From positions 1-55,058 of the forward strand of contig JBFLZD010000021.1 of NCBI GenBank assembly GCA_040756435.1: a DNA stretch of 55,058 nucleotides, given 5' to 3'. The stretch comes from Spirochaetota bacterium (GTDB lineage: Bacteria; Spirochaetota; UBA4802; UB4802). The notes below the pieces were generated by a model. It was given only the letters and a program-made list of their open reading frames with translations, had not been told where the DNA came from and searched no databases. The position numbers and the translations under genes were made by a program. Below, piece after piece: positions 3,451 to 19,164 of the stretch; positions within the stretch are counted from its first letter, which is position 1; each line of letters starts with the position of its first letter.

Positions 3451-5865
3451 GTGAATAATCCATTCTGCGACATGAATAACGTACCAGTAATTACATACGA
3501 TGAAGCGCAAATGCTTGAATGGCATACCCTTTTGACATATTTCAGGGATTTTTGTTATACAGAAATAGGAAAACAATTTTACACAACTTTACAGCCTTTA
3601 CAGTATCATGAAATCATGACACAGTATGCAAAGATAAACTGCGTAAAAGAAATTTTACGTGTAGGCCACTCTCCTGATTTTTCCGGTATATATGATATAA
3701 CACCCTTACTTGATAAGGCAGCTAAGGGTGGGACCCTTTTATTAGATGAAATTTTTAAAATTCGTTTGTTCCTTGTTGCGCAACACAGAATAACATCTTT
3801 TTTTAAATCAGTACACTATGATACATCAGTTCTTACAGAACTTCATGCAATTAATGATTGCGCACAACTTTTCAGACTGTTAACAACCTCAATAACCGAG
3901 AATGGCAATCTTAATGAGAACACCTATCCCTCTTTACGTAAAATACAAAAAGATATCAATGAAATACGCAGTACCATAGAAAAGAATCTTAATAACATTA
4001 TGCATTCACAAGCTTTTCAGAATGCATTACAGGAAAAGATTTACACAGTAAAAAATAATAGATATGGTATCCCGGTTAAATCTTCGCATAAAGGTAAAAT
4101 TAAAGGTACAGTTTTAGATATATCTTCTTCAGGTGCAACTTTTTTCATTGAACCTGAAAGCATTCATGAATTAAACAATACATTATTGTATAAAGAAATA
4201 GAATTGCAGCGTGAAATAGATAAAATACTTCAAATTCTTTCTTCCGAAATTGGAGTCTATTCACAAGATTTAAAACATAATACAGCCATTTTATCCTATC
4301 TGGATTTCTGCATATCGTGCGCACGTTTTGCCATTACCTACAATGCACATACACCTGCTGTTTCACCTGATCCCCTTTTAGATTGCATAAACGCTAAACA
4401 TCCACTTCTTGCAATTCTTCTACGTGATGCCGTTGTACCCTGTACCATAGAATGTGGAAAATCATTCAACTGCCTCATCATATCCGGTGTTAATACCGGC
4501 GGCAAAACAGTTTTGCTTAAAATGTTAGGATTGTTTGCGCTTTTGGTACGACATGGTCTTCCAGTTACAGCTAACCCCGATTCAACCATTGGTTATTTTG
4601 AAAATATATTTGTTGATATTGGTGATGAACAAAATATTATGCAATCGCTTTCCACTTTCAGTGGCCAGATAAAAAATATTGTGCGAATACTCAATCATGC
4701 CAATGATAAAAGTCTTATTTTGATAGATGAGATAATTGTTGGTACCGACCCAAAACAAGGAGCAGCCATAGCACAGGCAGTACTGGAATATCTTACTGAT
4801 AAAAAGTCAATTATAGCTGTTACCACTCACTATTCGCAATTGAAGGAAATTGCATCACATGATAACCGTTTTGAGAATGCATCGGTAGTATTTGATATTC
4901 ATACCATGAAACCAACATACCAGGTTCTTTCAGGTATACCAGGTGCAAGCTATACTATAGAAATAGCTAAAAATCTATCACTCCCTGATACAATTATTAA
5001 TAAGGCACTATCACTCCTGGATTCAACCTCCCAATCTATTGATGCTCTTCTTTCTAAAATTACTGAACAATCGCACGCTTTGCAGCAAAAGGAGCAGGAA
5101 CTATCGCTTTTAAAAGAAGAACTACAAAAATTACAGCAAGAATATAATAAAAAAATTATAGAGCTTCAGGCAACCATTGAAAAAGTCACCAGAGATCAGG
5201 CCACATCTTTTATGAATGAACTACAAGAATACCGTAATATAATTGTCAATAGAATCAGGGAAATACAATCAATGTCTATGAAAGATGCAACGACTTTGAT
5301 ACGTGATATAACTCAATTGCAAGAAAAGGTTAAGGGCACAATTTCATCATTGCACAAGCCTCACGAAAACTCTGTGGCCTGCAATACCGAAACTGCAAAA
5401 AAAGGTGTGCGTGTGTATATACCCTCTTTACAACAATATGGTATAATTGAAGAAGTAGATGCCAAAGAACAAACCGTTAAAGTCAGAATGGGTTCTATTG
5501 CCAGTAGGTTCTCATTTGATGATGTATACTGTATTGTTGAATCAAAAAAACCTGTTGCCATAAAAAAGAAAAAGCCTACTATAAAAGAAGAAATAACATC
5601 AGTACCCCTTACCATCCAAACACAGTACAATACTATTGACCTTCGCGGCTTGCGAGTTGATGAAGCATTACAAAAGTTAGACAGTGAACTAGATGCTATG
5701 GTAAAACAAAGTGTTCCGTCTGCAGTTGTAATTCATGGGCATGGCACAGGATCATTGAAAAAAGCAGTGCGGGATTATGTAAAACATTCTTACTATGTTA
5801 AAAATTTCCGCCCTGGCGAGCCAGAAGAAGGTGGTGACGGCGTTACCATCATTCAGTTGCGATAA
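3451..5865 (+). CDS. mutS2: MutS2 family ATPase/endonuclease
   Basis: Domain order follows MutS2: an N-terminal lever/clamp region with a long helical core, an ABC-type ATPase (Walker A as GVNTGGKT, Walker B as LILIDEIIVGTDP), a long coiled coil rich in Q, E and K (about residues 520-620), a KOW-like patch, and a C-terminal Smr domain with IDLRGLRVDEAL and IHGHGTGSLKKAV. In other bacteria MutS2 acts on recombination intermediates or on collided ribosomes. Walker A has Val where Pro is usual and the Walker B loop reads IIVG where LGAG is typical; both keep the catalytic residues. The GTG at 3451 is uncertain, and an ATG at 3472 is possible. It ends 14 bases from the convergent alpha-glucosidase. 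Confidence 0.93.
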   Translation: MNNPFCDMNNVPVITYDEAQMLEWHTLLTYFRDFCYTEIGKQFYTTLQPLQYHEIMTQYAKINCVKEILRVGHSPDFSGIYDITPLLDKAAKGGTLLLDEIFKIRLFLVAQHRITSFFKSVHYDTSVLTELHAINDCAQLFRLLTTSITENGNLNENTYPSLRKIQKDINEIRSTIEKNLNNIMHSQAFQNALQEKIYTVKNNRYGIPVKSSHKGKIKGTVLDISSSGATFFIEPESIHELNNTLLYKEIELQREIDKILQILSSEIGVYSQDLKHNTAILSYLDFCISCARFAITYNAHTPAVSPDPLLDCINAKHPLLAILLRDAVVPCTIECGKSFNCLIISGVNTGGKTVLLKMLGLFALLVRHGLPVTANPDSTIGYFENIFVDIGDEQNIMQSLSTFSGQIKNIVRILNHANDKSLILIDEIIVGTDPKQGAAIAQAVLEYLTDKKSIIAVTTHYSQLKEIASHDNRFENASVVFDIHTMKPTYQVLSGIPGASYTIEIAKNLSLPDTIINKALSLLDSTSQSIDALLSKITEQSHALQQKEQELSLLKEELQKLQQEYNKKIIELQATIEKVTRDQATSFMNELQEYRNIIVNRIREIQSMSMKDATTLIRDITQLQEKVKGTISSLHKPHENSVACNTETAKKGVRVYIPSLQQYGIIEEVDAKEQTVKVRMGSIASRFSFDDVYCIVESKKPVAIKKKKPTIKEEITSVPLTIQTQYNTIDLRGLRVDEALQKLDSELDAMVKQSVPSAVVIHGHGTGSLKKAVRDYVKHSYYVKNFRPGEPEEGGDGVTIIQLR

Positions 5866-17770: not shown

Positions 17771-18361
17771 TTAAATGCATGTACTCGTTTGGACCATAAA
17801 GAAATTTTTTTTCCTTTCAAGCTTTGAGTATATGCACCCACAATATTTCTGGCGATACATCCCATATTGTTTGGATAATTCTATGGAATGCTGGTAGCCA
17901 CCATTTGATTTAAAATCTGAAGGTATATAGGTTACCTTATACACTTTTGAAAGCGTGCTACCTATCTCATTTATTTTTTCAGCATCTTTATATGGGCTGA
18001 CGGTTAACGTGGTGCATACAGCATCAAATTTTTGTTCCCGGGCAAGTTTAAATGTTTCCTCTAAACGGAATGCATAGCATGCATGACAGCGCGGCGATAG
18101 TTCCCCATAAAAGCGATAAGGCTTTATTGCATCAAACCATTCCTTTTGATTATATTGTCCGATAGTTATTGGGATGGAATGAAGACGTGAAAATTGTTCC
18201 ACTTCATACAATCGCCTTTTGTATTCTGACTGTGGTGATATATTGGGATTGTAATAAAAAACATGGATAGAATAGCGAGACACAAGGACAGAATACACAT
18301 GTGTTAAACACGGTCCACAACATGTGTGTAACAGAACAGTTTGTAATTGACTATTTCTCAC
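17771..18361 (-). CDS. queH: Epoxyqueuosine reductase QueH
   Basis: QueH performs the last step of queuosine tRNA modification, reducing epoxyqueuosine to queuosine, and is the non-homologous replacement of the cobalamin enzyme QueG. Diagnostic motifs are HTCCGPCLTH at the N-terminus, SPRCHACYAFRLEET in the middle, TTLTVSPYKD, and KYCGCIYS near the end. These supply the [4Fe-4S] and extra-iron cysteines. Length (196) is normal. It overlaps the upstream small gene by four bases (ATGA). No other queuosine genes are visible in the window. Confidence 0.93.
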   Translation of the reverse strand: MRNSQLQTVLLHTCCGPCLTHVYSVLVSRYSIHVFYYNPNISPQSEYKRRLYEVEQFSRLHSIPITIGQYNQKEWFDAIKPYRFYGELSPRCHACYAFRLEETFKLAREQKFDAVCTTLTVSPYKDAEKINEIGSTLSKVYKVTYIPSDFKSNGGYQHSIELSKQYGMYRQKYCGCIYSKLERKKNFFMVQTSTCI

Positions 18362-18714: not shown

Positions 18715-18892
18715 TGATTATCCCTCTTGTACCATGGCTAGATATAAAAAATAAATACAACATAATATTTCTATAAAATATATAAAAATATTATCAAAAT
18801 GTCAAATATTTAAGGCTAAATTGCTCCATGAAACTAAATTTTTTTTTGATTCTCCATATATTTGTCATTGGTAAATAAAATTATTTTTTTGC

Positions 18893-18922
18893 TTGACATG
18901 ATTACATTCAATTGATTATTGA
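18893..18922 (+). promoter_or_regulatory. Candidate promoter of the aroF leader RNA
   Basis: A perfect -35 TTGACA at 18893-18898 is followed by AT-rich sequence with only weak -10 candidates (TATTGA at 18917-18922, 18-base spacer, or GATTAT at 18914-18919). A start near 18929 would place the leader peptide ATG at 18953 about 24 bases into the RNA. Confidence 0.45.
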
Positions 18923-18952
18923 TTTACACATCATTAAATGAATGTATTAACT

Positions 18953-19033
18953 ATGGAACTATCATTGTATAACATCATCAGCAAAAGCTATTATTTTTGG
19001 TTTTATTATTTTTATAGCAGGGCTCGTCTGTAG
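18953..19033 (+). CDS. Aromatic-amino-acid leader peptide (attenuator peptide)
   Basis: A 26-codon reading frame, too short for routine gene callers, contains a run of nine aromatic residues, YYFWFYYFY, at residues 13-21, plus one earlier Tyr. In total there are six Tyr, three Phe and one Trp. The stop is TAG at 19031. An in-frame upstream ATG at 18938 would add five residues. No strong Shine-Dalgarno is visible, so the start is uncertain. The position ahead of alternative hairpins and DAHP synthase is exactly that of leader peptides in trp/phe/tyr attenuators. Ribosome stalling at Tyr/Phe codons would report shortage of the pathway's end products. Confidence 0.75.
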   Translation: MELSLYNIISKSYYFWFYYFYSRARL

Positions 19034-19079
19034 CTTTTGCTGATGCTGTTATATATGCAAGGGCCGCAGGCGGGTAGCC
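18966..19079 (+). promoter_or_regulatory. Attenuator RNA: leader hairpin and antiterminator segments
   Basis: CATCAGCAAAAGCTA (18976-18990) is perfectly complementary to TAGCTTTTGCTGATG (19031-19045). After one mismatch the pairing runs on for nine more pairs (18966-18974 with 19047-19055, one G-U). The aromatic codons lie in its loop. GGCTCGTCTG (19021-19030) can instead pair with CAGGCG (19067-19072) and AGCC (19076-19079), skipping three bases. That pairing is incompatible with both the leader hairpin and the terminator, so it is a candidate antiterminator. A ribosome stalled on the aromatic run would mask the first arm and free 19021-19030; a ribosome at the stop codon would cover it. Confidence 0.65.
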
Positions 19080-19096
19080 GGCGGCCTTTGTTATTT
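19059..19096 (+). terminator. Intrinsic terminator inside the aroF leader
   Basis: AAGGGCCGC (19059-19067) pairs with GCGGCCTTT (19081-19089), nine pairs with one G-U. It is extended at the top by GGC (19069-19071) with GCC (19077-19079) and followed by a U-rich TTTGTTATTT. It lies upstream of the structural gene, as an attenuator terminator should. Confidence 0.75.
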
Positions 19097-19159
19097 AAGG
19101 ATTCATGTATAAGGCCGCCACCCTCCGGGCTCGTGAATGAATTTTCAAATTTACGGAGG
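19080..19159 (+). promoter_or_regulatory. Alternative hairpin and Shine-Dalgarno-masking sequence before aroF
   Basis: GGCGGCCTT (19080-19088), the terminator's 3' arm, is also fully complementary to AAGGCCGCC (19111-19119). Just beyond, CCTCCG (19122-19127) is complementary to CGGAGG (19154-19159), the ribosome-binding site of the DAHP synthase gene. The mRNA could therefore also be controlled at translation. Both pairings are seen directly; their use is inferred. Confidence 0.45.
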
Positions 19160-19164
19160 AATAT

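Follow-up and report, generated by a model that had tools for sequence, protein, structure and literature searches.

A predicted ribosome-mediated attenuator with an aromatic leader peptide upstream of aroF in an order of Spirochaetota

Described attenuators and the aroF leader

Attenuators of the E. coli trp/pheA type have leader codons for the end product of the pathway, followed by a protector, an antiterminator and a terminator that form mutually exclusive folds. In Corynebacterium glutamicum, an attenuator with a Phe-Tyr-Phe leader was proposed for a DAHP synthase (PMC4046766), and aroR, for which Neshat et al. (2014) are cited in connection with aroR-aroF, was described as a translational regulatory leader peptide (PMC7356990). 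The uORFC-13-1 motif, a prediction with 24 representatives, lies upstream of aroF in Acholeplasma and in unassigned environmental DNA (PMC8632094), and PMC8632094 and PMC2659441 cite Camakaris (1980) for a hypothetical attenuator of E. coli aroF. As for spirochaetes, our literature search, outside which most subscription papers lay, returned nothing on attenuation beyond a survey of leader-gene distances, in which Spirochaetales are mentioned and Lopatovskaya et al. (2010) are cited for the importance of RNA helix chains in attenuation (PMC4833913).

We analyzed a stretch of 55,058 nucleotides from a Spirochaetota bacterium (GCA_040756435.1, contig JBFLZD010000021.1), hereafter the window, in which an earlier note had read the region upstream of aroF as a classical attenuator. 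Like C. glutamicum aroR-aroF, this locus has an aromatic leader peptide before DAHP synthase for which ribosome-mediated attenuation is proposed; however, the leader of that actinobacterium is Phe-Tyr-Phe only, whereas the spirochaete leader has nine mixed aromatic codons. With uORFC-13-1, which was compared by its description only, it shares an upstream frame with Phe codons adjoining an intrinsic terminator upstream of aroF, although at least one Phe codon is described there as against nine mixed aromatic codons here. Leader codons for the end product and mutually exclusive folds are also found in the E. coli-type trp/pheA attenuators but, unlike in those, the antiterminator strand of the window lies within both the leader frame and the protector loop, and the second strand of the protector begins at the stop codon. 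No Rfam family, including those of leaders, T-boxes and riboswitches, matched the window at the gathering score, and a lax threshold gave only chance matches of microRNA, snoRNA and sRNA types. As far as we searched, such an attenuator has no earlier description in this order of Spirochaetota, while DAHP-synthase attenuators as such had already been proposed elsewhere. Thus, the view of the earlier note that none had been described for a DAHP synthase in such an organism holds for the phylum within the search, and the precedents in C. glutamicum and Acholeplasma limit it to that. A conserved module downstream of the terminator may further set the aroF attenuator apart from known ones.

Leader frame and alternative helices

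The leader peptide reads MELSLYNIISKSYYFWFYYFYSRARL and ends at a TAG codon, with an in-frame ATG at 18938 as a possible earlier start. Its nine consecutive aromatic codons (YYFWFYYFY, 18989-19015), already listed in the earlier note, form the sole run of at least six aromatic residues when the whole 55 kb of the window is read in all six frames. When 18800-19164 was shuffled 5,000 times with dinucleotides preserved, a run of nine aromatics never arose, and the run is kept in relatives, so the leader frame carries the conserved end-product codons of a leader-peptide attenuator. Each of the 15 aligned loci has a TTGACA-like element just 5' of the frame; no -10 element stands out, and no clear Shine-Dalgarno sequence was found upstream of the leader ATG.

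Table 1. Positions of the features discussed (window numbering) and trpE leaders with tandem terminators
Feature	Position or loci	Strand	Basis or remark
TTGACA, probable -35 of the leader promoter	18893-18898	+	TTGACA-like element in aligned loci
Leader peptide frame, 26 aa	18953-19033	+	conserved across the order; aromatic run unique in the window
Leader hairpin, strand 1	18968-18990	+	fold, complementarity, alignment of loci
Leader hairpin, strand 2	19031-19053	+	complementarity, alignment of loci
Antiterminator strand 2'	19020-19031	+	one-register pairing, covariation
Intrinsic terminator (predicted)	19059-19096	+	fold, complementarity, covariation
Region 5 (AAGGCCGCC)	19111-19119	+	complement of the terminator 3' arm (19080-19088), no mismatch
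Anti-Shine-Dalgarno CCTCCG	19122-19127	+	fold, alignment
aroF Shine-Dalgarno CGGAGG	19154-19159	+	predicted to pair with 19122-19127
aroF, DAHP synthase, 291 aa	19165-20040	+	NF006421 (434.6 bits), TIGR01361 (393.2 bits), Pfam PF00793
trpE leaders with tandem terminators	L168 (G000:C67), L159, L161-L164, L166, L167, L171, L173, L174		WWW/WWWW peptides

The comparison set consisted of 46 genomes of the order, with four same-genus relatives of the window genome, and yielded 15 aroF orthologs of type A with a readable upstream region (L001-L015; 63-100% identity). The two strands of the leader hairpin, each 23 nt long and 96% complementary, lie within a few bases of the hairpin noted earlier (18966-18990 with 19031-19055). 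At its 3' end, strand 1 takes in the Ser codon and runs into the first Tyr codon; the first base of strand 2 is that of the leader stop codon (19031-19033), an anchoring found in 15/15 loci. The predicted fold of the leader region reached -80.8 kcal/mol against -57.2 kcal/mol for shuffles (z = -5.3).

Strand 2', which follows the aromatic codons and runs into the stop codon, lies within the leader-hairpin loop and pairs with 19066-19079 (region 3). Region 3 is also part of the 5' side of the terminator hairpin (19059-19089), which is followed by a U-rich tail. This antiterminator, placed at 19021-19030 with 19067-19079 by the earlier note, was borne out in a single fixed register in all 15 loci, with 94% of cells paired and compensatory changes at four pairs among 12 distinct sequences, against 24-51% paired in slid controls; exchanging strands between genomes also gave poorer pairing than the native combinations (p = 0.00035). 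Most telling is one base of region 3, which is A opposite a T of 2' in six loci and G opposite a C in nine. Because this covarying base is mismatched in the terminator stem, the support that it gives to the antiterminator is independent of the terminator, and the covariation is to that extent separate from it. The terminator itself was 97.7% paired with four compensated pairs, both covariation counts coming from a composite alignment that was trimmed by hand at the stop codon and at the terminator and leaves out three loop bases of L008. Thus, the two alternative helices both covary, in agreement with the mutually exclusive pairings that the earlier note described. The GC-rich, U-tailed terminator of that note stands as far as the hairpin and its compensated pairs in relatives are concerned; its U tail is imperfect in the window (CUUUGUUAUUU) and weak in the genus, and the terminator of the window was not recognized by a simple consensus scan. 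Many relatives have U5-U7 at the tail position.

We then considered folding in the order of synthesis. When strand 1 was removed, which mimics a stalled ribosome, the probability of the antiterminator, P(2':3), was 1.00 before the terminator 3' arm (region 4) is made in 15/15 loci. With the leader hairpin allowed, P(2':3) did not exceed 0.03 in the window's genus (five loci), where the stop-anchored hairpin is thus predicted to act as a protector. It was predicted to prevent the antiterminator only partly in L007 and L010, and P(2':3) stayed near 1 in L009, L011, L013, L014 and L015. For those five, secondary structure alone thus gives no support to the protector role. Once region 4 was present, the terminator was at equilibrium as good as or better than the antiterminator in most loci, and antitermination must therefore be kinetic; kinetic switching is usual for attenuators.

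From its parts, their conservation, the covariation of both helices and the predicted folds, we conclude that the aroF leader is very probably a ribosome-mediated transcription attenuator, as the earlier note had read it. We infer ribosome stalling, termination and the identity of the sensed amino acids as follows. With charged aromatic tRNAs in good supply, the ribosome would reach the stop codon and cover 2'; in the absence of a ribosome, 2' would be hidden in the loop of the leader hairpin. In either case region 3 would pair with region 4, the terminator would form, and transcription would stop near 19090-19096. If one of these tRNAs lacks its amino acid, the ribosome would stall in the aromatic run and cover strand 1, so that the leader hairpin would be blocked and 2' left free to pair with 19066-19079 before the terminator 3' arm exists, and the polymerase would read through into aroF. 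The earlier note had taken the single Trp codon as a sign that Tyr and Phe are sensed. However, this codon is kept in 11/15 leaders, on which ground sensing of Tyr, Phe and Trp appears as likely as sensing of Tyr and Phe alone. Tyr and Phe codons with a conserved single Trp codon precede the enzyme common to the three pathways, so that joint sensing of the three amino acids would be directly testable.

Distribution of aromatic leaders in the order

The architecture of stop-anchored hairpin, antiterminator and terminator is common to 15/15 readable type-A aroF orthologs, and an intact aromatic-rich frame with the same end point is present in 14/15, so that the case that would have told against the earlier reading, namely relatives that keep aroF and lose the frame and the hairpins, did not arise. 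Synonymous changes between TAT and TAC and between TTT and TTC occur among the leaders. Upstream of aroF in L010, a frame shift in a T run within the aromatic codons reflects either a sequencing error or decay. A covariance model of the attenuator core, trained on the 15 type-A loci, gave a single strong match (E 1e-15 to 1e-19) in each of 16 genomes of the order, always at aroF, and recovered a locus outside the training set (L097 in G030) where the next frame is the start of aroF. No strong copy was found outside the order in a sample of 393 genomes of the phylum. The best of the weak matches (E 0.001-1), on inspection, looked like ordinary terminators or chance except for two, one of which (L126) is a trpE attenuator with WWW. 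The other (L112, G019:C8, about 4852-4939, minus strand) combines a Tyr-containing short frame, MNAYIHIFRNYIYYS followed by a stop codon, with a terminator directly upstream of an aminotransferase-like gene, and is a possible leader.

We also considered whether the second DAHP synthase of the order, a paralog beside pheA, shares the control of aroF. This was rejected, since leaders of the aroF type were absent at about 20 loci of the paralog and at 30 pheA loci; a match of six aromatic residues at one paralog (L062) is part of the coding sequence and due to chance.

Other aromatic genes of the order have leaders of their own. Those of trpE, including that of the window genome, encode WWW or WWWW and are followed by terminators. 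At 11 loci in families f1, f4 and f5 (Table 1), two U-tailed terminators succeed each other, and the 3' arm of the first is complementary to the 5' arm of the second over about 7-17 pairs. Tandem terminators with a possible antiterminator are also known from the rimP leader of Gammaproteobacteria, which is not an amino acid attenuator and for which no leader-peptide relay is seen in the passages of PMC2965389 devoted to it. The Salmonella mgtCBR leader (PMC3641672) likewise has two control points on one leader mRNA, but it has two ORFs and two signals, whereas two hairpins follow a single leader frame in the present case. The tandem hairpins offer a testable case in which one ribosome might set two terminators in turn.

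A second aroF group, in family f7 (L017-L020 and L023-L025), has its own aromatic leader with FYFYFY-type peptides, a different terminator with long U runs and a matching antiterminator. Because the type-A aroF, the f7 aroF and trpE each have separate leaders, leader-peptide attenuation is, as far as sequences tell, a general habit of this uncultured spirochaete order for its aromatic genes, and would serve as a general control of aroF and trpE. Outside the phylum, we observed aromatic-run frames upstream of DAHP synthase in five loci (L039, L040, L042, L048 and L052), from sources that include Lentisphaeria, Saccharofermentans and two bins labelled archaeal, and strong U-tailed hairpins follow the frames in L040, L042 and L052.

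Downstream module and alternative readings

Between the terminator and the start of aroF, a block, AAGGYCGCCACCCTCCRGGCTC, is kept in the genus while its flanks diverge. Its first nine bases are region 5, and it also contains CCTCCG. This conserved module (19111-19127 with 19154-19159) was absent from the earlier note. Most type-A aroF leaders outside the genus have a full second hairpin at the position of the module; its loop contains CCTCC in several of them, and in some it is followed by a U run. Region 5 of L008 is AAAGCCGCC.

The attenuator may extend to this module. As a tentative extension of the best explanation, one sensing event would set two successive control points: the antiterminator formed when a ribosome stalls would free region 4, which might then pair with region 5 and block the second hairpin. 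By this pairing region 5 may lock the read-through fold. On this reading the second hairpin would act as a second terminator in trpE, where a clear U-tailed terminator stands at that position, and probably did so in the ancestral aroF, while in the genus of the window the second aroF hairpin would have lost its 3' arm, leaving only region 5 and the anti-Shine-Dalgarno sequence. The facing complementary arms of the tandem U-tailed terminators at the 11 trpE loci are consistent with such a relay; trpE would stay silent behind two unconditional terminators, which suggests that the second is conditional, as pairing of regions 4 and 5 would make it. The second hairpin at the same place in most type-A aroF leaders outside the genus and the near constancy of region 5 among relatives whose flanks differ point the same way. 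Complementarity between regions 4 and 5 was best in the native leader in swap tests, a modest excess with p = 0.04 for aroF, where a misdelimited region 5 understates L008, and p = 0.005 for trpE. Folds with free 2' that included region 5 gave 2':3 together with 4:5 in L001-L004, L008, L012 and L013. On the other hand, duplicated terminators would be cross-complementary even without a function, compensatory change at 4:5 is limited, L007 and L009 lack 4:5 complementarity, the U tails behind the second aroF hairpin are weak, and that hairpin is gone in the window itself. The relay is thus a possible addition to the attenuator, though less likely than not.

It is far less likely that the main output of the leader is at the level of translation, by sequestration of the aroF Shine-Dalgarno sequence by CCUCCG, and not by termination. 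CCTCC capable of pairing with the Shine-Dalgarno sequence occurs between terminator and start codon in about 11 of the 15 loci, the next base pair varies in a compensable manner (G-C, A-U or G-U, with one mismatch in L005), and the Shine-Dalgarno sequence is predicted to be fully paired in the window's genus. However, simple secondary structure predicts it to be paired in the stalled and the unstalled folds alike in the genus, so that pairing alone gives no switch, and the terminator and antiterminator are kept in 15/15 loci whereas the anti-Shine-Dalgarno sequence is not. We accordingly dropped a Shine-Dalgarno switch by simple secondary structure as unsupported in the genus. Action in trans of the terminated leader RNA or its peptide is less probable still: termination would release a short RNA, and passages in PMC7298713 on the trp leader peptide of Sinorhizobium meliloti give a precedent, but the tail of the aroF leader peptide changes together with the RNA pairing. 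That a chance aromatic frame stands beside an ordinary terminator is hardly credible, for T-rich upstream DNA does favor Phe and Tyr codons, yet the shuffles gave no such run, and the conservation of the frame and the covariation of both alternative helices contradict it.

Returning to the predicted attenuator and the gene behind it, aroF, which encodes a 3-deoxy-7-phosphoheptulonate (DAHP) synthase of the B. subtilis-like type, is apparently the sole gene following the leader, the next gene lying on the opposite strand. The earlier note had supposed that RNA control replaces feedback inhibition in a synthase lacking a regulatory domain. This was not supported, since the same attenuator also precedes orthologs whose N-terminus is longer, and Pfam found no regulatory domain in either form of AroF. 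The N-terminus of AroF in the window's genus is shorter than in the orthologs L006-L015 from other families of the order, and Pfam named no domain in the extra N-terminal stretch. Elsewhere in the window, the protein encoded at 17771-18361 on the minus strand, which had no match in NCBIfam, carries a LLHTCCGPCLTHVY motif and presumably resembles a QueH-type epoxyqueuosine reductase.
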